Source: a virus. From it: a stretch of 64,000 bases of DNA. The notes below the pieces were generated by a model. It ran no database searches. It saw nothing but the letters and a program-made list of their open reading frames with translations, and was not told where the DNA came from. Below are positions 11,927-51,187 of the stretch, in pieces (the stretch's first letter is position 1; the number at the start of each line of letters is the position of its first letter). The DNA is taken from positions 1 to 64,000 of the IMG/VR virus record IMGVR_UViG_3300050343_000265; one strand, given 5' to 3'. The position numbers and the translations under genes were made by a program.

Positions 11927-12511
11927 ATGTCAAAACTAAAAAAAAGAATGGCTGGGAAAAAGCTTGATGAACGTTTTGGTGAAGGGTTCACAGATCGCGT
12001 AAAAGGCGATGGAATGCAGGAACCTACTAAACAGGGTTATTCCAAACGAGAATTGCTTGCTGAATTTCGCGGACGTCCAGATGGTGTAAGTATCGATGAA
12101 GGTGAAGGAAACTTAGTTGATAAATACCAAGGTCTTGTAGACTCAGGCAAAAGATTCAATAATCAAGCTGAGGACTATCTAAAAAGCCATGGTGTGATTT
12201 TTAATCAGCCTGAAGAGATTGTTATCAAAGATGAGCCTGAAGAAATCGATCTTATTACTGATGAGCCTACAGTTGAATATACTCCAGCACCTGTAACATT
12301 TTCCTCAGCACCAATTCAATCAATCGTGAGTAGTGGAGACGGTGGAATGAATATTAACCAGGACAATGATATTAGTAATATGATCTACGGCAATGATAAT
12401 AATGTTTCGAACTATCAAGATAATTCCATAGGCAATATTGGGGATGAATTATATGCCCAACGAAATCCCATGGATTTCAAAAATATGTTCATGCAAAATC
12501 TATTTAGCTGA
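11927..12511 (+). CDS. Acidic protein with Asn/Asp-rich C-terminal motif
   Basis: 194 residues, 6 nt after terL with GAGG before the ATG. The N terminus is basic (KLKKRMAGKK), the middle acidic (PEEIVIKDEPEEIDL), and the C-terminal third reads MNINQDNDISNMIYGNDN then NYQDNSIGNIGD. The same motif recurs in the gene ending at 14047 (NVNQDNDINNN, NNQQDNSIRNYGGD), so the two proteins probably share a fold or partner. Function unknown. Confidence 0.6.
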   Translation: MSKLKKRMAGKKLDERFGEGFTDRVKGDGMQEPTKQGYSKRELLAEFRGRPDGVSIDEGEGNLVDKYQGLVDSGKRFNNQAEDYLKSHGVIFNQPEEIVIKDEPEEIDLITDEPTVEYTPAPVTFSSAPIQSIVSSGDGGMNINQDNDISNMIYGNDNNVSNYQDNSIGNIGDELYAQRNPMDFKNMFMQNLFS

Positions 12512-17466: not shown

Positions 17467-17757
17467 GTGCGCTTAGCAGGACAAGAAACACAACACGATC
17501 CTGAGGTATTCCAAACTATTTGGAAACACCTTAAAAGTGATGGCGTGCCAGATCAAGCCGCCAATCAAATGACAGCAGAGATGCTGACTCATGGAGAAGA
17601 TTTTGAAAGCAGTGTAGAAAGATATCAACAGTTCGAAGATAACTATCGATCAAAAGGATTTAACGAACATGCTGCACAAGCAATGGCAGTCGAAGCATTA
17701 GAAGGAAGAGAAGAAGCCCCGAAGGAAAGTATTAGATTTGCTCGCACACATGCTTGA
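17467..17757 (+). CDS. Small acidic helical protein upstream of the sigma factor
   Basis: 96 residues from a GTG start, chosen because it follows a promoter hexamer by 26 nt. The sequence is helical, rich in Gln, Glu and Ala, with two similar segments (DGVPDQAANQMTAEMLTHGE and KGFNEHAAQAMAVEALEGRE) that suggest an internal duplication of a UBA-like or EF-like helical unit. Function unknown. It is next to the sigma gene, so an anti-sigma or sigma-partner role is possible but has no direct support. Confidence 0.6.
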   Translation: MRLAGQETQHDPEVFQTIWKHLKSDGVPDQAANQMTAEMLTHGEDFESSVERYQQFEDNYRSKGFNEHAAQAMAVEALEGREEAPKESIRFARTHA

Positions 17758-33370: not shown

Positions 33371-35860
33371 ATGGCTAAGTTAGATTTTCCTGATGCTTCT
33401 TACTCTCCTTGGGTTGCTCCAAACAATGTAATCTATACTTACATTGGAACATCACCAAACGGGTATTGGGAAGCTAACACTGCCAATGCTGCGACAAACT
33501 TAACAGCTGTCTTTGTCGAACGCACAGGCAGTACAATGACTGGTCCGTTGATATCTGGACTTTCTGGTGCTGGTTATGGATATCAATTAAACAATGGGAG
33601 TACAAACCTAGGAGGATTATATAGAGATACAGGATCCTCAAGACTAATACTAGGAGATGGTTCTACTACAAAGATTGATCTACAAGGATCATCAGGAGCC
33701 GCCGAATTTGCAGCAGGTTCTTTTGTTATTGAAAGCGATGGTGACATCTCTACAAATATTAGAGGTCACGGCCATATAGAGCTTGACTCTAGTGGATCTT
33801 TTAGTAGCCCTAAGATAAAATTATTTTCTACTACAGGAGCCGCCACATTTGCTGGTGATATCACAAGCGAACTAAATGCCAATTACAAGTCCGTCATCGC
33901 AGCAAACGGTAGCATTGCTCTTTATGGTGCTGGAAATTTAGTAACTTACCTGAATAACGATGGATCCGGCTCATTTGCGGCTGATGTAATTATTGGCGAA
34001 GGAGGTTATGCTGCTCAAGACAAAACCGGAATATATCTAGCCGCCAGTGCTGGTTTCGCTAATGTATATCATTCAGCAGCCGCTACAGCAGACTTCTTAT
34101 CATTCACCAAATATGACCCAAATACTGCTCCTTATTTTAGTGTTAAGGCATCTATTACAGACTCAGGAAATGCCACATTTGCGGGTGACGCAACCATTAA
34201 CGGGCTGACTGTTGGCAAAGGTGCGGGTAATATTTCAACCAATACGACGGCTGGAGCTTATGCACTTAATAACAACACCTCTGGTAGTGGCAACACAGGT
34301 ATTGGATCTTATGTTCTTTATAGCAATACTTCTGGGACTCTAAATACAGGATTAGGGTATCAAGCTCTTTATTCCAACACTACTGGTGTTGAAAACACAG
34401 CTATCGGAGTAAACACTCTAGTTTTTAACACTACTGGTCTTCAAAATACGGCTACAGGGTATCGAACTTTATACAATAATACCACTGGTTCTTATAACAC
34501 GGCATCAGGTAAAGATTCTCTTTTTTACAATACTACAGGTAGTAATAATACAGCTATTGGTTATCAGGCAAGTATATCTAACACTACAGGTGGTGGCAAC
34601 ACAAGTGTTGGACAAGATGCTTTATATAATAACTCTACTGGTAACTCAAACACAGCTATGGGCTACCGAGCCCTTACTAGTAATACAACTGCTAATCAAA
34701 ATACAGCAATTGGTTTTGAGTGTTTGAAAGCTAACACTACAGGCGGCAATAATGTAGCGCTTGGGTTGCATTCATCATATGGAAATTCTACAGGTACCAA
34801 TAACGTCAGCGTAGGCGTTAACGCTAGTAAAAACAATACAAGTGGTGGAGAAAATACTGCAGTAGGTTATAAAGCAAGTGAAGGCAATAGTTCAGGTAAC
34901 TACAACACATCCTTGGGAGCTACTGCCCTTATAAGTTCGACCTCTAGTTACAATACGGTCGTCGGTTGGCGAGCTCTTTATGGTCAGACCACTGGTTCGA
35001 TAAACACAGCCTTTGGTGCCGAGTGTATGTATAGCAATACAGGTGGTAATTATAATAGTGCTTTTGGCTATGGAACCTTGAGACAGAGCACTACAGGGGA
35101 TAGAAATGTAGCTCTAGGGTATCAGGCTTTGTACTCAAATACTGTTGGAGGATATTCCACAGCTGTGGGTATGTACGCTAACTATTACAACACCACTGGT
35201 AATGGTAATGACTCTTTCGGCTACACTGCTCTACATTACAACACTACTGGCCTTTACAATTCAGCAATCGGCTATCAAAGTTTGTATCACAATACTAGTG
35301 GCAGCCGCAACACGGCTTGTGGACTAAATACTCTATATTACAACACTACTGGCATCCATAATGTTGGGTTAGGACACAATGGCCTCTATAACAACACTAC
35401 TGGATCTGGGAATATTGGTATAGGTTTTACTACTAGTGCTGGGACATATTCCCCAGTCTTTAACCCATCAAGCCAGGACAATCGTCTGGTTTTAGGTCAT
35501 AATTCAATCACAAATGCCTATGTTAGAGTCTCTTGGACTGTCACATCTGACGAGCGCGATAAGATGAACTTTGCTCCAGTGCCTTATGGTCTGGACTTTG
35601 TTAATCAACTCAAGCCAACTGCCTATCAGTTCAAGGTAGATCGTGACACTGAAACACCCAATGGTGATGTACGTTATGGCTTCAAAGCGCAAGACATTCT
35701 TGCATTAGAAGGTGAGAATCCTGTCATCATTGACATTGAAGATCCAGATCACCTCAAGTATAAAGGTGAGCATCTCGTTCCTGTTCTAGTCAATGCAGTA
35801 CAAGAACTAACTACAATGGTTAAAGAACTACAATCTGAACTTAAAACACTTAAAGGTTAA
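33371..35860 (+). CDS. Fibre with 23 YadA-head-like repeats and S74 chaperone
   Basis: 829 residues. After an N-terminal attachment segment (PDASYSPWVAPNNVIYTYIG) the region from about base 34260 to 35430 holds ~23 repeats of ~17 residues of the form NTTGSYNTASGxxALxx, the pattern of left-handed parallel beta-roll heads of trimeric autotransporter adhesins. The last ~110 residues are an S74 chaperone (TSDERDKMNFAPVPYGLDF, YGFKAQDILALEGEN, LVPVLVNAVQELTTMVKEL). A second, distinct receptor-binding fibre is likely. The repeats would allow length change by recombination. Confidence 0.85.
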   Translation: MAKLDFPDASYSPWVAPNNVIYTYIGTSPNGYWEANTANAATNLTAVFVERTGSTMTGPLISGLSGAGYGYQLNNGSTNLGGLYRDTGSSRLILGDGSTTKIDLQGSSGAAEFAAGSFVIESDGDISTNIRGHGHIELDSSGSFSSPKIKLFSTTGAATFAGDITSELNANYKSVIAANGSIALYGAGNLVTYLNNDGSGSFAADVIIGEGGYAAQDKTGIYLAASAGFANVYHSAAATADFLSFTKYDPNTAPYFSVKASITDSGNATFAGDATINGLTVGKGAGNISTNTTAGAYALNNNTSGSGNTGIGSYVLYSNTSGTLNTGLGYQALYSNTTGVENTAIGVNTLVFNTTGLQNTATGYRTLYNNTTGSYNTASGKDSLFYNTTGSNNTAIGYQASISNTTGGGNTSVGQDALYNNSTGNSNTAMGYRALTSNTTANQNTAIGFECLKANTTGGNNVALGLHSSYGNSTGTNNVSVGVNASKNNTSGGENTAVGYKASEGNSSGNYNTSLGATALISSTSSYNTVVGWRALYGQTTGSINTAFGAECMYSNTGGNYNSAFGYGTLRQSTTGDRNVALGYQALYSNTVGGYSTAVGMYANYYNTTGNGNDSFGYTALHYNTTGLYNSAIGYQSLYHNTSGSRNTACGLNTLYYNTTGIHNVGLGHNGLYNNTTGSGNIGIGFTTSAGTYSPVFNPSSQDNRLVLGHNSITNAYVRVSWTVTSDERDKMNFAPVPYGLDFVNQLKPTAYQFKVDRDTETPNGDVRYGFKAQDILALEGENPVIIDIEDPDHLKYKGEHLVPVLVNAVQELTTMVKELQSELKTLKG

Positions 35861-39268: not shown

Positions 39269-40324
39269 ATGCTTAACAATGAAAATAAAAGGCTAGGGTA
39301 CACCGAAGTTTATTACAATTATAAAGCTGACAAATTTTTCACAGAAGACTTTGGCAATCAATTCAAAGGATTAGATATTACGTTATCCAATGGCGGTGGT
39401 GGAGGAAGTGGTATTCAGGCTGGAGATAATATTAGTCAACTTACAAACGATGCAAACTATGTTGTTTCAGGAGCAAATATTAGTACTTTAGTAAATAATG
39501 TAGGATTTTTGACGTCCTACAGCATTCCATCTGCAGCCAGCCTACCAACTGCAAATTTAAGCTTTGGTAATCTTGCTGCGTTATCTACAGATAACAATCC
39601 ATATTTTTATGATGGTACAGCTTGGCGAAGAATCTTCTTAGCAGATGTTCCACCTCAAGCAGGAGATCCTGATACTGATTGGGACAAAGTTATTCTTCGA
39701 GTACCATTCAATACAAATACTACTGACGTTAAAATTCCTCTCTCATCTAGTACTAATGGTTCTCAAGCAGTTATTACTGGTAGTCCAAGAAAATTTGGAG
39801 CTGGTGCACTTAAAGTCCAAAACTCAAGCTATATTGTCTACAGTGGTAATAGTCTTGGCGCATTTTTAGATAACGATTTCACAATAGAATTTTGGCTCTA
39901 TATAGATTCATTTAATGCCCAAGATCAAGATACAGGTATATTACGCAAAGGCACTACTTATTTCTATTTTGATTTCGTTGGAAATAATCAGATGATCTTT
40001 AAAATACACCTATCGAATGTAGGTGTAACGACACCCGATCTCGTCTATAACATCGTAGGTAACATGCCAACTGGCGGTTGGCATCATATTGCTTACTGTC
40101 GAAATGCGACGTCTGGTTTGTGTCAATTGTTTGTTGATGGTACGTCAAAAGGAACTGTTAATCTCAACAACATGGTTGATTCAACTAGTTATGATTTATT
40201 TATTGGTGACCTAATGAATTCTCAAGCGGATATGGTTATGGATGATTTAAGAATATCTAACTTTGAACGATATACGTCTAATTTCACAGCACCAACTGCA
40301 GAGCTGCCTACAAGTGGCAGTTAA
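39269..40324 (+). CDS. Adhesin with LamG-like (jelly-roll) domain
   Basis: 351 residues. The N-terminal ~130 residues resemble fibre attachment and a coiled region (QAGDNISQLTNDANYVV). From ~150 to the end a concanavalin A/LamG-like fold is visible: GAGALKVQNSSYIVYSG, DFTIEFWLYIDSFN, GGWHHIAYCRN, LFVDGTSKGTVNL, MVMDDLRISNFERYT. Such domains bind surface sugars, so this is a third candidate receptor-binding protein. Single-gene unit with its own promoter. Confidence 0.75.
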   Translation: MLNNENKRLGYTEVYYNYKADKFFTEDFGNQFKGLDITLSNGGGGGSGIQAGDNISQLTNDANYVVSGANISTLVNNVGFLTSYSIPSAASLPTANLSFGNLAALSTDNNPYFYDGTAWRRIFLADVPPQAGDPDTDWDKVILRVPFNTNTTDVKIPLSSSTNGSQAVITGSPRKFGAGALKVQNSSYIVYSGNSLGAFLDNDFTIEFWLYIDSFNAQDQDTGILRKGTTYFYFDFVGNNQMIFKIHLSNVGVTTPDLVYNIVGNMPTGGWHHIAYCRNATSGLCQLFVDGTSKGTVNLNNMVDSTSYDLFIGDLMNSQADMVMDDLRISNFERYTSNFTAPTAELPTSGS

Positions 40325-43381: not shown

Positions 43382-43714
43382 GTGAAAAGTGCTGGCTTAA
43401 GAAATAAACCGCTTGATCGGCGCTACTTACGTGATGACGAACGTGAAGCTTATGACGCAAGTGGTGATTATGGTGCACGTGCGCAGGCATTAAAAAGAAC
43501 AAAGGCATACAAAGGTCAAATGGCCTATGAGCAGAATCGTCCGATCAGGACTGTTACAACACGTCCTGGTACAGGTGGTCAGAACTCAGGCATTGGTATC
43601 CAACGTCAGCGCAAAGTCAATCAAGCAATGGCTAACGAACGCTCAGCTGATTTACGTCCAGAAATGGATAGCACACCCAATATTTATAAACAGCTTGATA
43701 CACGCTACGGATAA
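43382..43714 (+). CDS. Basic Gln/Arg-rich protein
   Basis: 110 residues from a GTG start 13 nt after the previous gene. Arg/Tyr/Gln-rich, low complexity (DRRYLRDDEREAYDASGDYG; GIGIQRQRKVNQAMANERSA). It ends at the right border of this unit, followed by a terminator. Function unknown. Confidence 0.5.
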   Translation: MKSAGLRNKPLDRRYLRDDEREAYDASGDYGARAQALKRTKAYKGQMAYEQNRPIRTVTTRPGTGGQNSGIGIQRQRKVNQAMANERSADLRPEMDSTPNIYKQLDTRYG

Positions 43715-43774: not shown

Positions 43775-44146
43775 TCAGAAGCGGTAGGTAGCACCAATCT
43801 TGGTACCCAGTGAGAGGGTATCCACGTCAAACTCTTGGTCTTCTGTGATGAATGCAACTTCTCCGTAGAGTTCAAATGATTCTGAGACATCGGCAATAAC
43901 ACCAAACTTACCAGACACTTCAGTCTCAAGCTCTTCATCTTCAATGGAGATAAAAGCAGGACCTGCCTGTACATAAAGGCTAACATTTTCGCTAGCTTCA
44001 AACTCATAGCCAGCGTGGACTTCAGTCACTGCACCTTCAAAGTCATTGCCAACCCAGCCTGCATTGTTCTCAACGTTGGCGTAGGGTCCAGCAAATGCAG
44101 GAGCTGACAGTACAGATAAAGCTGCAATAGTAATAATAGATTTCAT
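43775..44146 (-). CDS. Outer-membrane beta-barrel protein (porin-like)
   Basis: 123 residues with a clear signal peptide (MKSIITIAALSVLSAPAFA, cut after residue 19). The mature part alternates aromatic/hydrophobic and polar residues like barrel strands (YEFEASENVSLYVQAGPAFI; ELYGEVAFITEDQEFDV) and ends in the aromatic C-terminal signature TYRF used by the BAM machinery. It would sit in the host's outer membrane, comparable in idea to Lom-type phage proteins; function (surface change, exclusion) unknown. Own promoter with a long leader, own terminator. Confidence 0.75.
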   Translation of the reverse strand: MKSIITIAALSVLSAPAFAGPYANVENNAGWVGNDFEGAVTEVHAGYEFEASENVSLYVQAGPAFISIEDEELETEVSGKFGVIADVSESFELYGEVAFITEDQEFDVDTLSLGTKIGATYRF

Positions 44147-44194
44147 AATTAAACTAACTAGTATGGATAGCGATTTATACTTATCGCTCTCAAT

Positions 44195-44200
44195 ATTATA
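44195..44200 (-). promoter_or_regulatory. Promoter hexamer of the porin-like gene (TATAAT, leftward)
   Basis: ACATATAATA on the minus strand, 48 nt before the ATG at 44146. The leader carries an inverted repeat (AGCGAT, AAGTATAA, ATCGCT), which may regulate translation or bind a protein. Confidence 0.55.
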
Positions 44201-44214
44201 TGTACTAAATAAAC

Positions 44215-44243
44215 AAAAAAAGACCCCCGCTGTTAAGCGAGGG
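44215..44243 (-). terminator. Terminator of the small gene at 44265
   Basis: On the minus strand CCCTCGC, loop TTAACA, GCGGGGG and then seven T. Strong intrinsic terminator. Confidence 0.8.
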
Positions 44244-44264
44244 ACAGATAATTAATTGTATAAA

Positions 44265-44492
44265 TTAGTGGCAGTAACTAACACCACGGTATGTAAAACA
44301 ACCATGCCGTTCTTTTGTAGCAGTGGCTTTGATAGTTGGGACACCACGGTAGCGTGTCTCAGACAGGCGATGAACACGTAGTTCGTTCTGTGCACGAAGG
44401 TACTCTTTGCGAGCATTTTCGACAGCACGTGCTTGTAATTGGGTCATTGGAAACTCCATAGTGAGGTGTAGTTTCCCGTTCCTTCCCTCCAT
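44265..44492 (-). CDS. Small Arg-rich protein with DUF4278-like end
   Basis: 75 residues. The core is a charged helix (QLQARAVENARKEYLRAQNE), and the C terminus GCFTYRGVSYCH resembles the short YRGxxY motif of cyanobacterial DUF4278 proteins. Start 44492 is chosen because the spacing from its promoter (48 nt) equals that of the neighbouring porin-like gene; an ATG at 44459 after GGAGGGAAGG is an alternative. Function unknown. Confidence 0.5.
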   Translation of the reverse strand: MEGRNGKLHLTMEFPMTQLQARAVENARKEYLRAQNELRVHRLSETRYRGVPTIKATATKERHGCFTYRGVSYCH

Positions 44493-44540: not shown

Positions 44541-44546
44541 ATTCTA
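44541..44546 (-). promoter_or_regulatory. Late-type promoter hexamer (TAGAAT, leftward)
   Basis: GCTAGAATA on the minus strand, 48 nt before 44492, overlapping the end of the kinase-like gene. The leader holds a hairpin (TCTGCT, GACATTT, AGCAGA). Confidence 0.55.
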
Positions 44547-46052
44547 GCGGCCTTGGAATAGTTCTGTCAATCCAAACTCAAATTTACTAGGATTAAATCT
44601 ATCTCCAGCTAATCGTAGACGATGTGCTAAATCAGGAAAAGGTGCATCTTTAACAAGCCCCCTACGAATTTGTACAGGATTAGTACCAGCACGTTGAATA
44701 ACAGGTGGGTTATCTACTCGTGCAGCTTCACTAGCAATTTGTTCTTTCAGTGAACTACCAGGAGTTGAATATCCAGTGCGTTCTTCAGTACCTATCGCTT
44801 GACGTGCTTTGGATAGTAGCGTTTCCCCTGTAGTAGCTCTTGACAACTCATTGAGAGATCTCGCGCCTTCCGTCAGTAAAAATCCGCCTGCAACACCAGG
44901 CATGACAGGAGCGATAGCAGGGACAGCTTGAGTTACTAAACCTGCTCCAGCTGCTACAGGCAGGCCCATTAAAGCCTCACCAGCAAATTGACGGGCACCT
45001 GCACCTATTCCTTCTCTTTCAGTAGCTCGGATAGTTTCTGCAGATGGAATTAAATCCGGTAAACCAAGTGATGCGCCTTGAGCAAATGCAGCGCGGGGTG
45101 AAATTTTGGGAGGTGTAAGTTTTTGTTGCTTAAAATCTTTTATCAAGCTAGTGAGTCCGTCTGCATAAATACCTTTTGAAGCTTTTGATTTCCAATCTCT
45201 TGGACCTTGTTTAGTTACTACAGTTGCTTCAGCATCAGCACGAGGAATATCTTGATTACGTTCAGTCCAATTAACTGGATCAATGCGTTGATCAGTCATA
45301 TCAACTACATCTTCACCCTGTTGTATTAAATCAGTTAAAGCAGTTTGGGATTCAACTATTGCGTCTACATTACCATTCGCTATTGCAGTGTTTTTCTCTA
45401 TAAGAAGTCTGTCTGATTCTTCTTGAAAGAGTTCGAGCATGTCAATGTTGCCAGATGCTTTTAAACCCTGAGCAATATTATTAAGACGAACCGGATTAGT
45501 GTTGGCACCAGAATAACGAACCCCCTTATTATCCTTAGCTAAGCCATAATCTAAAACAACTGTTTTATTAGTTTTAGGATTAAATTTAATATTACCTCCG
45601 TGTCGATCATTATGATAAACACCCCCCTTTCTGTATAAGTCAGAAAGAGCTTTTGATTTTGATAAGCTTCTGGTTCTACTAGGTTCAGTTTCTGCAAAAT
45701 CTGCTTTATCCATTTCAATAAAGCTTAAGCCTTGTGTATCACCAGCAGGTGCTTTAACACCAGAATCAGGATTAATCCACCGGTCATTTTCAGGAACAGC
45801 TTTGTCTGGGAAGAAACCTGTTTCTCCTAATTTAGGAACTTCAACGTTATCACCCGCATCAAGAAACGCACGAAATTGCTTATCAATTTCATTGTCATAA
45901 ATTGAGTAATCACCTTGTTGAATCTTGACAACTTTGCCGGGATTAAGCGGAGATTCGTAAACACCACCAAATGCTGATGGATCTCCAATACGCTTCCAAT
46001 CTTTATTTTTACCTGACTTAATAGCCTTAAGCTGTTCTTTAGTAAAATTCAC
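44544..46052 (-). CDS. Protein-kinase-like protein with hydrophobic tail domain
   Basis: 502 residues. N-terminal kinase-like fold: nucleotide loop GDPSAFGGVYES (~24-34), Lys 43 in KVVKI, Glu 55, catalytic loop YHNDRHGGN (His 147, Asp 149, Asn 154) and LDYGLA (Asp 168, DYG for DFG). These are the main residues of eukaryote-type or RIO/AarF-like kinases; about 180 residues is short for a full domain. The second half has a Gly/Ala-rich hydrophobic segment (~355-400: VAAGAGLVTQAVPAIAPVMP), like those of internal virion proteins. Delivery into the host with the genome, or action on host polymerase as T7 gp0.7, is inference. Confidence 0.7.
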   Translation of the reverse strand: MNFTKEQLKAIKSGKNKDWKRIGDPSAFGGVYESPLNPGKVVKIQQGDYSIYDNEIDKQFRAFLDAGDNVEVPKLGETGFFPDKAVPENDRWINPDSGVKAPAGDTQGLSFIEMDKADFAETEPSRTRSLSKSKALSDLYRKGGVYHNDRHGGNIKFNPKTNKTVVLDYGLAKDNKGVRYSGANTNPVRLNNIAQGLKASGNIDMLELFQEESDRLLIEKNTAIANGNVDAIVESQTALTDLIQQGEDVVDMTDQRIDPVNWTERNQDIPRADAEATVVTKQGPRDWKSKASKGIYADGLTSLIKDFKQQKLTPPKISPRAAFAQGASLGLPDLIPSAETIRATEREGIGAGARQFAGEALMGLPVAAGAGLVTQAVPAIAPVMPGVAGGFLLTEGARSLNELSRATTGETLLSKARQAIGTEERTGYSTPGSSLKEQIASEAARVDNPPVIQRAGTNPVQIRRGLVKDAPFPDLAHRLRLAGDRFNPSKFEFGLTELFQGR

Positions 46053-46110: not shown

Positions 46111-46980
46111 CTATTTAAATGCCAAGCGCTTTAGAAAATCATATCCTTCGTTTAACTTTGATAAGCCAGGGCTAATATTGCTGGTCACTCGTTCTTCAAA
46201 CGAAGCTTCTCTGGGCGTTATATCTTGCCAGTGGTTTGGTGAAATTGTTTTATCAATATTGATAGGCTCATAAGTGCCTAAACCCTTGGCAACACTAGCA
46301 ATGATAGAAGGGATATTTCCACCTTCAACTAAGTCAATTTTACGATCAAAAGTATCTTTTGATTTAGAGCTAATTCCTGCACTCTTGTCAGCGGCTACAG
46401 TAGCTGCATCATCAATCTTCCATTGATCTTGTATATTCATTCCACCTTCTGGAGTAGGTCGCATAGATAAACCACCAAAAGTCATTTTTAGATCACGCCC
46501 ATAACCACTGTGATTAGAGTTGTTTTCAGCGTAGGTAGTTATATAAGGTGAATTAAATTTCGCAAGTCTATCGTTATCATGAGCTCGATAGTTTTTATTA
46601 AAAAAGTCTATCTCTGCTTTTTGCTGTTCAGGTGAAAGATCATAGAAAGATCCACCATCATTTGTTGTAAATCTATCTGGCTCAAACTCTCGAACGATTG
46701 GGGTTCGTGTAGGAGCCTTTTGAATAGAATAAGCTTGCTTTAATCTTGCTAGTTGATCATCATTAAGTTCAATACCTCCAGCTGTAACGGTGTCTCCACC
46801 TGTCATAGCTTTAATAAAAGTACGCTCTGGTAAACCAATGCCAGGTGTATTATCAACTACCGCATTACGGAGGTTTTGAAACGGTCCAGAACGTACTAAT
46901 CCACCTAAGACTGCTTTAGAACCTTGAATAAAAGGATTCTGCGCAATAGCATTGGTTGCAAATCTGGATATATCACTCAT
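46111..46980 (-). CDS. Unknown virion-region protein, leftward
   Basis: 289 residues. N-terminal ~65 residues are Ala/Gly/Arg-rich; a central part contains GYGRDLKMTFGGLSMRPTPE, then GGMNIQDQWKIDD, a beta-hairpin pattern seen at the C termini of some toxin or tail proteins. No firm family. It lies 58 bp before the kinase-like gene, with separate promoters, so the two may work together. Confidence 0.6.
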   Translation of the reverse strand: MSDISRFATNAIAQNPFIQGSKAVLGGLVRSGPFQNLRNAVVDNTPGIGLPERTFIKAMTGGDTVTAGGIELNDDQLARLKQAYSIQKAPTRTPIVREFEPDRFTTNDGGSFYDLSPEQQKAEIDFFNKNYRAHDNDRLAKFNSPYITTYAENNSNHSGYGRDLKMTFGGLSMRPTPEGGMNIQDQWKIDDAATVAADKSAGISSKSKDTFDRKIDLVEGGNIPSIIASVAKGLGTYEPINIDKTISPNHWQDITPREASFEERVTSNISPGLSKLNEGYDFLKRLAFK

Positions 46981-47003
46981 AACTAAATATCAAGCTTGTA
47001 ACT

Positions 47004-47009
47004 ATTTTA
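47004..47009 (-). promoter_or_regulatory. Late-type promoter hexamer (TAAAAT, leftward)
   Basis: GTTAAAATA on the minus strand, 23 nt before the ATG at 46980. Confidence 0.6.
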
Positions 47010-47025
47010 ACTATTTATCAAGGGA

Positions 47026-47175: not shown

Positions 47176-48936
47176 ATGGGCAAGAAGAACAAAGGTGGAA
47201 ATAAAGGCGGTGGGAGAAAGGGAGGCTCATCACCTAAGCCATCACCTAAGCCGTCACGGAGTCCTTCACCTAAGCCGTCACCTAAGCCGTCACGTAGTCC
47301 ATCACGCAATCCTTCACCGAGTCCTTCACGCAATCCTTCACCAAGCCCAGCACCAGCTAGGCAGCAAGCTAAAGCAGTAGCTCAAATGAGCGTTAAAGAT
47401 CGTAGGGCAGGTGCAAAAGCTGCTGGTGTAACTCTTAAGGACTTTAAACAAGGCAACACTGGATCAAAGGCTGTAGCAAGAAAAACTGCTCAAGTAAATA
47501 AAAATACTGGCGGTGGAAATACTGGCGGTGGAAATACTGGCGGTGGAAATACTGGCGGTGGATCTAGTATTAATTACAACCCCGCTGCTCGTGGAGGAGC
47601 AGCATTTGGCAATGAAGATTATAATCATTTAAAATCTCAAGGCCATAATGATCAGCAGATTAATAGCTATCTTGGTACATTAAACAACAGTCAAGTATCA
47701 AATAAATATAAAGCACAAGGGGGATTTACTCCTAATCCTACGAACACATCTACAGGCGGCGGCATAGACTATTCAGATAAATACGACACTAGTAGTCCTA
47801 ATTTTCACAGTAGTTATAAATCATTGATGGGTAATTATGATCCTGCATCACGTGGAGGAGCAGCATTTGGCAATGAAGATTATGACTACTTAAGATCTCA
47901 AGGACATACTGAAAGCAGTATTAATTCGTATCTTGGCGAATTAGATACTTCACAAGTATCTAATAAATATAAAACCAGAGGTGGTCATACACCTAATGCC
48001 AGTATAAATAGTGGTAGAGACAGTAGTGATGGTCTGTATCAAGATAGATATTCCGTAGGTAAAGGCGGCGAAGATGATAAAGGTGATATGTATTTAAGCC
48101 AAGGCGCTCTTGGAAATATAAATAGTTATTTTAATATTTCAGGTAATACACAAGAAGACGTTGTAAATAGTTGGAATGCAAATGATTTTGAAAGGTCATA
48201 CACTTCTTGGAAAGATACAGGGAATAGTGAAGTAGGAAAAGGGCACGGTGGATATGCTGGCGATGTTTTAAAAATGATTGATCAAAATAATTTTAAAGTT
48301 ACTGACGAGCAGTATAATCGTCTTGTTAATGACGCTAAAAATCATAACTGGAACTCTCAAATGTCGTCGGATGGTACGCAGGCTGGCAGGTCACACGCAG
48401 ACTTTGATGCAAGTGGTATGTATGACGCCAGACTTGGTGGGACGATGGAAAGTCAAGGCAATATGAATGATGTAACAGGCGCAAAATATGCTGATTGGAC
48501 TAACTCAGAATACTATAGTGGTGCATCTGTAGACGCAAGGAACAACAGAAGGCAGCAAGTTAATGACTCTATGGATGCAGCTGCTTTTCAGAAAAGTCTG
48601 CACGGGGGAAACGCAGATGTTTCTCATATGCATCGTGAGATGGAGCAATACAAACCAGCAGGTTTTCAGTATGACCCGTGGAGTGGAGCCACAAATCAAC
48701 AAACAATGGGGGATAATAACTTCCAAAACTTTGGAAGTCAGGAGTCAGACTTTGAAGCTCCGACTCAAGCTGCTAGTAATTTTGACATGCCTAATGTTCA
48801 ACAAAGTATGGGGCCACAGTATCAAGGCTGGCAGGAACAGATGGGGAATGCAACCCAAAGTCCATATACTTCTAGAAGTAAGTCTAGTAATATGAACTTT
48901 AATTTTAACCCCTACAAATTTCAGCAAGGGCAGTAG
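47176..48936 (+). CDS. Ser-Pro/Gly-repeat protein with duplicated domain
   Basis: 586 residues. Basic Gly-rich start (GKKNKGGNKGGGRKGG), Ser-Pro-Lys/Arg repeats to ~60, a helical basic segment, then GGGNT repeats (~112-130). Two copies of one domain follow: RGGAAFGNEDYNHLKSQGHN (~137) and RGGAAFGNEDYDYLRSQGHT (~225), each with INSYLG and SQVSNKYK. The rest is Asn/Gln/Ser-rich. Overall plan resembles the broken gene at 12522. Its stop abuts the leftward gene at 48937 with no visible terminator. Virion or surface protein inferred. Confidence 0.65.
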   Translation: MGKKNKGGNKGGGRKGGSSPKPSPKPSRSPSPKPSPKPSRSPSRNPSPSPSRNPSPSPAPARQQAKAVAQMSVKDRRAGAKAAGVTLKDFKQGNTGSKAVARKTAQVNKNTGGGNTGGGNTGGGNTGGGSSINYNPAARGGAAFGNEDYNHLKSQGHNDQQINSYLGTLNNSQVSNKYKAQGGFTPNPTNTSTGGGIDYSDKYDTSSPNFHSSYKSLMGNYDPASRGGAAFGNEDYDYLRSQGHTESSINSYLGELDTSQVSNKYKTRGGHTPNASINSGRDSSDGLYQDRYSVGKGGEDDKGDMYLSQGALGNINSYFNISGNTQEDVVNSWNANDFERSYTSWKDTGNSEVGKGHGGYAGDVLKMIDQNNFKVTDEQYNRLVNDAKNHNWNSQMSSDGTQAGRSHADFDASGMYDARLGGTMESQGNMNDVTGAKYADWTNSEYYSGASVDARNNRRQQVNDSMDAAAFQKSLHGGNADVSHMHREMEQYKPAGFQYDPWSGATNQQTMGDNNFQNFGSQESDFEAPTQAASNFDMPNVQQSMGPQYQGWQEQMGNATQSPYTSRSKSSNMNFNFNPYKFQQGQ

Positions 48937-49136: not shown

Positions 49137-50441
49137 CTAGTGAGTAGCAGCCCAGTTTTCACCATGATCAGCTGATGCAGCCATAGGTACTCGCAGGTTG
49201 TAGTACTTACCAGCCTCAGGTGCTGCTGCTTCTAACAACCGTTTCATTCGATCAACCTCAGCAGGTACTACAGACATCTGAACTTCATCGTGTACGTAAG
49301 CGCAGCGAGTGTAGTCACGGTCATAGGTAAGTCCCGCATCGTCTAACATCTGCTGTCCAATTACCACCCATCGCTTGGAGATGATTGCTCCGGCAGACTG
49401 AAGTAAGAAGTTGGGACTACTGTGCTCAGCACGACAGAATATAGGACGCCCATCAAGGCCCCTAAGACGACCAGTTGAGCGAACTTTAAGTTTAACTGCA
49501 TCTACTAATGGCTCCAATCCAGGGATAGCGTCAAGGAATTTGCGGCGGAGTTCACCGCCAAGTGTTTTCTTCTGTGCATCTGATAGCTCAGGCTGCAGAC
49601 TATGGCCAAGCTTTACATCACCTGCTCCATAAATGAATGCGTAGGTCAGCGTCTTGACTTGTGTACGTGTACATCCCACACGATCAGCATTTTGCTGGTG
49701 AATGTCACCGTTGACGACAACTTCAGCGAAGGAGCCCTGGTCAAAGGCGGCCAAGTAGTGCCCTAATAGGCGTAATTCCAGGCCTTCAAGGTCAGCTCCG
49801 ACCATTACATGACCAGGGTGAGGTACAAATAGTTCACGTGCCCATGGTGCAGATACAACCTGGCCCAAGTTGGGACCACGATGAATATTTCTAGATGTTT
49901 GAGTAGCAAGAATGCAGCTGTGGTGGATACAACCATCGTCTTCCATAGAGTTGAACCATGAATTGGTTCCCTCCGACAGCTGACCTAACCACTTCTGCAA
50001 GGTCAACAAACGAATAAACATCTCACATTCGTCATGCAGTTTTTGGTTACCAGCAGACAATGCAATGTCTCTTACTTCAGAGAGAGTTGCCTCATCAACT
50101 TTTGGCTTACCAGTCTCAGTAACTTTAGTGAAGCGTGCACCACGGAATGTTTGCAAAGCCCAAACAATATTTAGGCGTGACGTAGGGTTAAAGTCAGTCA
50201 AGCGCGTCATAGAAGCACCTGCTACATAGCCTTTCTTTTTATCAGCACGCTTTGGAGTAAATACTTTACCAGGTACGTACAGATAAATTGATTTGATTTT
50301 ATCTGTTAAATCATCAAACTCTTGCTGCAGTTTCGTACGTACACGTACAGCAGCCTCAGTGTCAAATCTAAATCCACTTGCTTCCTGCTGAGCCATAAGC
50401 TCGGCCATCCGCATTTCAAGAGCAACGTAATCAGGCATCAT
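49137..50441 (-). CDS. DNA polymerase, polymerase half (family A, T7 type)
   Basis: 434 residues matching T7 gp5 from its thumb (EMRMAELMAQQEASGFRFDT) to the end (HGENWAATH). Motif A GADLEGLELRLLGH (~214-226), motif B KTLTYAFIYGAGDVKLG (~265-275), motif C VHDEV (~381-385), all catalytic residues present. It has no 3'-5' exonuclease domain; that is encoded separately at 50657-51187, with a small gene between. It replicates phage DNA, with host or phage processivity partner unknown. The start overlaps the 50431 gene by 11 nt. Confidence 0.93.
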   Translation of the reverse strand: MMPDYVALEMRMAELMAQQEASGFRFDTEAAVRVRTKLQQEFDDLTDKIKSIYLYVPGKVFTPKRADKKKGYVAGASMTRLTDFNPTSRLNIVWALQTFRGARFTKVTETGKPKVDEATLSEVRDIALSAGNQKLHDECEMFIRLLTLQKWLGQLSEGTNSWFNSMEDDGCIHHSCILATQTSRNIHRGPNLGQVVSAPWARELFVPHPGHVMVGADLEGLELRLLGHYLAAFDQGSFAEVVVNGDIHQQNADRVGCTRTQVKTLTYAFIYGAGDVKLGHSLQPELSDAQKKTLGGELRRKFLDAIPGLEPLVDAVKLKVRSTGRLRGLDGRPIFCRAEHSSPNFLLQSAGAIISKRWVVIGQQMLDDAGLTYDRDYTRCAYVHDEVQMSVVPAEVDRMKRLLEAAAPEAGKYYNLRVPMAASADHGENWAATH

Positions 50442-50670
50442 TATTTTTTAGCTGGTTGAATCCAAAGTTGAGATCTTTCTCTTTAGCCGCCCTGTCTGCT
50501 CGATTCTTATGACCAAGCTTTGCTACAGACTCCATAACCTTTAAGCAGTCCTCTGTAGTAGCTCCTTCTGGCATACGCGAGTGAACGATATTAAATAGCG
50601 GAAAGAAAATCTCCGCTGCCTCTGTCATTTCTTCAGAGTTGAGTGGATCTGATTTCTTAGGAATAGTCAT
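50431..50670 (-). CDS. Small protein between the two polymerase halves
   Basis: 79 residues, helical and charged (SEEMTEAAEIFFPLFNIVHS; KNRADRAAKEKDLNFGFNQL). It overlaps the exonuclease gene by 14 nt and the polymerase gene by 11 nt. It is not an HNH or GIY-YIG endonuclease by eye and has no counterpart in T7 gp5. A bridging subunit for the split enzyme is an attractive guess only. Confidence 0.6.
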   Translation of the reverse strand: MTIPKKSDPLNSEEMTEAAEIFFPLFNIVHSRMPEGATTEDCLKVMESVAKLGHKNRADRAAKEKDLNFGFNQLKNNDA

Positions 50671-51187
50671 TCATTCTCCTTTGCAATAGTTCGTATAGCT
50701 TTACTGTTACTTTTGTATCTTGGATGCAATAGTCAAGCATCTCAGGAGTGTAAGTAGACCAGTCATTACTGGTGTTCTTAGCAAAGTCTCCTTTGAAGCA
50801 CTTTAATCTATAGCCCCATGCCTCTAGGCTATGTGAGCCGTAGAGCCTTTGTGGCATTCCAATAGGTCTTCTTTCATAATCTCGCTCACTAATGTGAGGA
50901 TAATACAAGCGAGACAGAGTAAGTGTGTCAAGGTAAGAACCTCTTGGTGCAAACTCTGGAAACTGTTCTTTAAGAAGTGGTACATCGTATCCCAGAATAT
51001 TGTGGCCAATAAGAACATCAGCACGCTCAAGGGCTTTTACACCTTGAATGACTGCACGTTCTGGTTTGCAGTCAAAAACTTCTGCTTCTTCTACATTAGC
51101 GATATCACGAATCACAATACAGTGAATTGTAGAACCGACACGCAGTAAGCCAGTACTTTCAATATCAAATAATAGTTCAGTTGTCAT
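50657..51187 (-). CDS. 3'-5' exonuclease half of T7-type DNA polymerase
   Basis: 176 residues equal to the N-terminal domain of T7 gp5. Exo I LLFDIESTGLL (Asp 8, Glu 10), Exo II LIGHNILGYDVPLL, Exo III LDYCIQDTKVTVKLYELL, with HSLEAWGYRL between. It provides proofreading for the separately encoded polymerase part. In most relatives both are one chain, so the gene is split at the domain border. The start overlaps the 51177 gene by 11 nt. Confidence 0.92.
   Translation of the reverse strand: MTTELLFDIESTGLLRVGSTIHCIVIRDIANVEEAEVFDCKPERAVIQGVKALERADVLIGHNILGYDVPLLKEQFPEFAPRGSYLDTLTLSRLYYPHISERDYERRPIGMPQRLYGSHSLEAWGYRLKCFKGDFAKNTSNDWSTYTPEMLDYCIQDTKVTVKLYELLQRRMNDYS

Follow-up and report, generated by a model that had tools for sequence, protein, structure and literature searches.

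Introduction

The protein kinase gp0.7 of phage T7 is the product of an early gene and is not packaged. In phage T4, a targeting sequence 10-20 residues long at the N-terminus makes sure that internal proteins are incorporated into the head (PMC5694885), and the ADP-ribosyltransferase Alt is injected along with the phage DNA (PMC5512222). Iyer et al. 2017 predicted injection for the small kinases, reduced in their C lobe, that form part of phage polyvalent proteins; an insert separates the catalytic His of these kinases from the Asp, and they come mainly from (pro)phages of the Verrucomicrobia-Chlamydia and Bacteroidetes groups, no cyanophage being mentioned in that account (PMC5512222).

A sequence-only reading of a 64,000-base stretch of viral DNA (the window) drew attention to an open reading frame (ORF) that appeared to join a kinase to a membrane-active region and, placed by that reading among late genes, might be packaged and injected. 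Following up this proposal, we find that most kinases of related phages share an N-terminal signature with capsid-building proteins, which suggests that these phage particles pack a signalling enzyme and deliver it with their DNA.

The virus and its relatives

The window comprises bases 1-64000 of record IMGVR_UViG_3300050343_000265, which is 83,953 bases long. The record encodes a T7-like cyanophage DNA polymerase and a VapE-type helicase, and it carries an ORF that, on reading its translation, we take to be psbA. By its head genes, the closest isolate is Synechococcus phage S-EIV1 (KJ410740; terminase 54% and portal 48% identity), with which synteny is broad. On the strength of these head genes and of this synteny, the virus is an uncultured relative of S-EIV1, about 84 kb long and psbA-bearing, with marine cyanobacteria as its hosts. 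One survey estimates that S-EIV1-like phages make up about 3% of marine cyanophage content (PMC5332604).

Two features of the record are noted here as side observations. DNA polymerase A is split at window positions 49137-51187 (minus strand) into an exonuclease ORF and a polymerase ORF; the S-EIV1 enzyme is a single 623-aa gene, and the annotation of S-TIP37 has a split like that of the window. The psbA reading frame (L005:5396-6343, minus strand) seems to run out of frame near its C-terminus, reflecting either an assembly error or a real frameshift.

A minimal kinase family

The ORF (44544-46052) lies on the minus strand, which the sequence-only reading had left unstated, and encodes a kinase-domain protein of 502 aa with a GTG start, delimited by the frame itself and by full-length homologues. 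Two such homologues, from two viral contigs, are 48% identical to it and keep every motif. These are, all on the minus strand, the Gly-rich loop IGDPSAFGGVYES (residues 22-34, 45951-45989), the ATP-binding lysine of V-V-K43 (45924-45926), the hinge IEMD, the catalytic loop HNDRHGGN (H147-N-D149-R-H-G-G-N154; 45591-45614) and L-D168-Y-G170, whose DYG (residues 168-170) is at 45543-45551. Gly loop, VxK, HND...N and DYG thus sit where they had been placed from the letters alone. Because homologues at this distance keep them and because the protein matches a family of stand-alone kinases with 96% probability, we consider the motifs to be no chance occurrence.

To define this family we gathered 80 loci of related phages, anchored on the DNA polymerase that neighbours the kinase. 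With a profile built from the three long proteins, stand-alone proteins about 220 aa in length came to light downstream of the DNA polymerase. Of the thirty distinct sequences that passed the family search, one, the annotated kinase of S-N03, falls outside the family. In profile-profile alignment with hhalign, the window protein matched the 14-member stand-alone family (96% probability, E 3e-9) over residues 21-220, colinearly across the Gly loop, Lys, hinge IEMD, catalytic loop and DFG; the catalytic-loop His is absent from the stand-alone members. Together with Foldseek comparison of the family model, this alignment sets the kinase domain at residues ~18-215 (45408-46001, minus strand). In a third architecture the kinase domain occupies the C-terminal half of proteins of 475 and 507 aa, after about 245 residues (L014:6395-7822 and L069:3210-4733, respectively).

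The 219-aa member L085 was modelled with AlphaFold from a 29-row alignment that included the window domain (pLDDT 87.7, pTM 0.81). The model has an N lobe, a catalytic loop, a DFG strand and, after the DFG, three C-lobe helices that make up a reduced C lobe. All 50 of the 50 PDB matches listed by Foldseek are kinase domains (best E 2e-6, probability 1.00), and the first match in BFVD is the kinase of cyanophage S-TIM5 (E 1e-8). Prediction of the window protein from 3 sequences reached a pLDDT of 35, and its place in the fold is assigned by homology. Across the family the active-site Asp and Asn and the Asp and Gly of the DFG/DYG motif are invariant (29/29), and the ATP-binding Lys is present in 28/29. 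Values of dN/dS for five pairs were 0.04-0.11, showing that the family is under purifying selection. By the L085 model and its PDB matches, the invariant catalytic residues and the low dN/dS, this is a conserved family of protein-kinase fold with an intact active site, to which the window protein belongs; the kinase fold itself we regard as near certain. The earlier identification of a kinase is borne out by the profile alignment, Pfam matches, model and PDB neighbours alike.

No kinase homologue was found in bacterial and archaeal genomes, and a tblastn search of 50,697 phage records with the window protein, L001, L041 and L085 gave no convincing homologue. The family appears to be specific to S-EIV1-like cyanophages and is unlisted in the libraries searched.

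An N-terminal tag shared with head proteins

The stand-alone kinases start with MRKAGELI or a similar sequence, in which R2, A4, G5 and L7, ahead of the Gly loop, are invariant in 14 sequences; R2, A4 and G5 stand in the tag sequence MRKAGELIAQYLREG. We scored the tag as R[KFYLM]AG within the first 14 residues. In eight genomes it occurs in 21/418 genes of the structural strand, 0/447 of the other strand and 5/6 kinases. Most of the other tagged genes sit around the terminase, portal and capsid genes. In the window they include the gene for a 96-aa head-module protein between the portal and major capsid genes (17467-17757, plus strand; tag MRLAGQ) and the gene directly after that of the large terminase (11927-12511, plus strand; tag MSKLKKRMAGKK).

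As the tag had been noticed after looking, the pattern was frozen before it was tested on contigs not used to define it. There it was found in 79/697 head-side genes, 3/769 replication-side genes and 18/20 kinases (shuffle mean 0.9), with a p of 4e-23 that overstates independence because the test contigs share gene families with the first set and only about four unrelated families carry the tag there. The three tagged replication-side genes all belong to the variable site past the DNA polymerase at which the kinases lie. An unbiased search for exact-letter patterns of four N-terminal residues found none that reached 7 families; the tag is therefore visible only with a degenerate second position. 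As a sequence pattern, the tag is shown by these counts to be associated with head-side genes, and a short N-terminal sequence common to unrelated head-gene products, as in T4, is present in the stand-alone kinases. Among the head-side genes of loci L148-L227, several unrelated families around terminase, portal and capsid bear the tag lineage-wide. We know of no described counterpart to it.

Elsewhere in the record, a HAD-type phosphatase/nucleotidase gene on the replication strand (L005:12582-13106, minus strand; genome 76582-77106) is preceded by a TACAATA box, and its product, which starts much like the tag with MRKFAGDLF, is a possible second packaged enzyme.

The C-terminal extension of the window protein

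R[KFYLM]AG is absent from the N-terminus of the window protein, which starts MNFTKEQLK. Its sole R-x-A-G is RLAGD, near the C-terminus, and R-x-A-G showed no clear enrichment at C-termini. The kinase domain is followed by an extension with a Gly/Ala-rich hydrophobic segment at residues ~352-398 (44859-44999, minus strand). This segment is present as first described; the label 'membrane-active' is unproven because its best 19-residue Kyte-Doolittle mean of 1.57 and its prolines make no classical membrane helix, and no clear transmembrane stretch is predicted. Gly/Ala-rich hydrophobic segments are about ten times commoner on the structural strand (38/418 genes) than among other genes (4/447). 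When compared with other proteins, the extension gave a sole, weak match (E 0.005), between its hydrophobic part and the product of an S-EIV1 gene near that for the portal; the remainder is unique to the window protein and L001/L002.

The protein ends in a conserved tail, RLAGDRFNPSKFEFGLTELFQGR (44547-44621, minus strand), the end of which resembles the C-termini of the protein family encoded at 47176-48936. Proteins of that family, at window 47176-48936 and L001:14665-15714, are rich in Gly, Ser and Pro and have C-termini (FNFNPYKFQQGQ) similar to the end of the long kinase (FNPSKFEFGLTELFQGR); each of the two genomes with a long kinase has one such protein. A general C-terminal tag (FNPSKF...QGR) was rejected, with only two families carrying it and 10 occurrences observed against 10.2 in shuffles.

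Gene position, upstream box and time of expression

Structural genes occupy the plus strand up to 43714, and replication genes the minus strand. The kinase gene lies towards the end of the replication genes, about 3 kb and a few genes past the DNA polymerase and near the point at which the structural operon converges on them, so the 'late region' to which it had been assigned from position does not hold. Anchored on the polymerase part of DNA polymerase A (49137-50441, minus strand), this site past the polymerase and ahead of the convergent structural operon holds a kinase of the family in 23/38 related contigs and lacks one in 15/38. In 22 of the 23 contigs with both features, the kinase adjoins the convergent end of that operon, marked in the window by a 110-aa ORF (cluster c9; 43382-43714, plus strand). 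Beside the window kinase, 43775-44492 (minus strand) encodes a cyanophage OMP-like beta-barrel protein and a 75-aa protein, both of which recur at the variable site between DNA polymerase and convergent operon. All gene counts carry noise from mechanical gene calling (longest non-overlapping ORFs).

Relatives of the window kinase have an upstream box of the structural-strand type. TACAAT is found in the 48 bases before the start of 47/370 structural-strand genes, 7/393 others and 4/6 kinases; in the kinase family it lies about 30 nt upstream and is often just preceded by a terminator-like hairpin. In the window, a 289-aa ORF (46111-46980, minus strand) lies 58 bases upstream of the kinase ORF, with which it is probably co-transcribed; its N-terminus, MSDISRFATN, resembles the tag, and it gave no family match. 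Upstream of it is a promoter-like GTTAAAATAG (47002-47011, minus strand), and the same 10-mer precedes the structural-strand genes 33371-35860 and 39269-40324. No strand bias was found for TAAAAT as such, which makes the promoter evidence weak for the window.

These observations bear on the most serious alternative, in which the protein is an early or middle host-takeover kinase resembling T7 gp0.7 that is never packaged and targets host RNA polymerase, RNases or translation factors. Its gene shares the strand of the DNA polymerase and lies close to it, a placement with replication genes that counts against packaging as does the missing N-terminal tag of the window kinase, and family members have a weak profile match to the T7 kinase family phrog_15752 (0.0084). 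The upstream box of the relatives, the hairpin that often precedes it, and a tag common to head-side proteins and found in none of the other-strand genes of the eight genomes argue the other way, and we judge this alternative unlikely, at perhaps half the weight of packaging.

The tag and promoter evidence would serve equally for a late assembly kinase, recruited by the tag to the prohead to phosphorylate scaffold or capsid proteins and then leaving or staying, without being injected; its tagged neighbours are encoded between the terminase, portal and capsid genes. A universally needed assembly step is hard to reconcile with the roughly 40% of related contigs that have no kinase at the site and with S-EIV1, in which no homologue was found, and we think such a role improbable.

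Activity and class of the window kinase

The Gly loop of the window protein, G23-D-P-S-A-F-G29-G30-V, is non-canonical: its second glycine is replaced by Ser, as in the close homologue L001. The alpha-C glutamate column holds E in 27/29 members and Gln in the same two proteins, with E55 of the window protein one turn earlier. Because of these two replacements the full activity of the window copy is less sure, and it could have reduced or no activity. Both would suit a catalytically dead pseudokinase kept in the window lineage as a structural part of the virion; K43, D149, N154, D168 and the hinge IEMD are nevertheless kept in both proteins, which leaves this reading with little probability.

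Family members score with kinases of several groups and seem to belong to no single one: PI3_PI4_kinase (2e-5) and ABC1 (3e-4) in Pfam, UbiB (3e-4, in 13 members) in NCBIfam, Bud32 (7e-4), NleH (0.03) and the PD-T4-6 defence kinases (5e-4). RIO kinases were rejected, the STGKEA-type loop being found in 0/29 and DFG/DYG in 29/29. A metabolic or membrane kinase of ABC1/UbiB type acting on host quinone metabolism is very improbable: ABC1 is the best Pfam match of the window ORF (0.014, sub-threshold) and of its homologue (8e-5), but at 15 and 22.3 bits both fall under the curated cut-off of 22.9, the match spans the catalytic loop only, K.GQ occurs in just 3/29, the nucleotide loop is Gly-rich rather than Ala-rich, and for other members PI3/PI4 kinases give the better scores.

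Discussion

We propose that the product of the ORF, a minimal kinase of the family specific to S-EIV1-like cyanophages, is made late, packaged and probably ejected with the DNA, an explanation to which, as a whole, we give a probability of about 0.5. Despite its location on the replication strand, the kinase gene would be transcribed late from its own promoter, as the common upstream box indicates. The kinase would then be incorporated into the head during assembly, a step for which we put the odds at roughly even, the stand-alone relatives by means of the N-terminal tag that they have in common with head-module proteins. In the window protein the C-terminal extension, which holds the Gly/Ala segment, might serve for entry into the head; that it replaces the missing tag is a guess. 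Once in the host with the DNA, the kinase would phosphorylate host proteins at the start of infection. The gene-position argument for packaging fails, and its conclusion gains support from other evidence: late expression and packaging are supported indirectly by the tag and TACAAT box of the relatives and by the Gly/Ala segment of the window protein.

A fuller version of the proposal is rather less probable than its core. Here R[KFLMY]AG would be a lineage-wide packaging signal that leads small head proteins and the kinase into the capsid, the ejected kinase would, by phosphorylation, rewire the cyanobacterial cell ahead of all phage gene expression, and in the window lineage an extension with a head-type hydrophobic segment would have taken the place of the tag. 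Phage kinases are known, as are packaged enzymes that modify the host, and a packaged protein kinase with a targeting signature would join them. The signature would also make it possible to guess from sequence which uncharacterised proteins, numerous in this widespread lineage of marine cyanophages, are destined for the head.

S-EIV1 is the closest isolate, but the kinase has no detected counterpart there; one protein of S-EIV1, encoded at 48012-48629, bears the tag. Among the best viral structural neighbours are the kinases of the cyanophages S-TIM5 and S-CBWM1 (BFVD H6WG62 and A0A3G1L3P9), at 14-21% identity. Like the kinases of polyvalent proteins, the family is small with a reduced C lobe; unlike them, it has no insert between the catalytic His and Asp, the H147-N-D149 spacing of the window protein being canonical. 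With T7 gp0.7 it shares the nature of a phage-encoded protein kinase and a weak profile match, and it differs in the late-type upstream box and head-protein tag of the window kinase's relatives. The mode of action that we propose is that of T4 Alt: as with Alt and the T4 internal proteins, a host-modifying enzyme would be marked by a short N-terminal sequence common to head proteins, although the tag is a different one and the chemistry would be that of a kinase instead of an ADP-ribosyltransferase.
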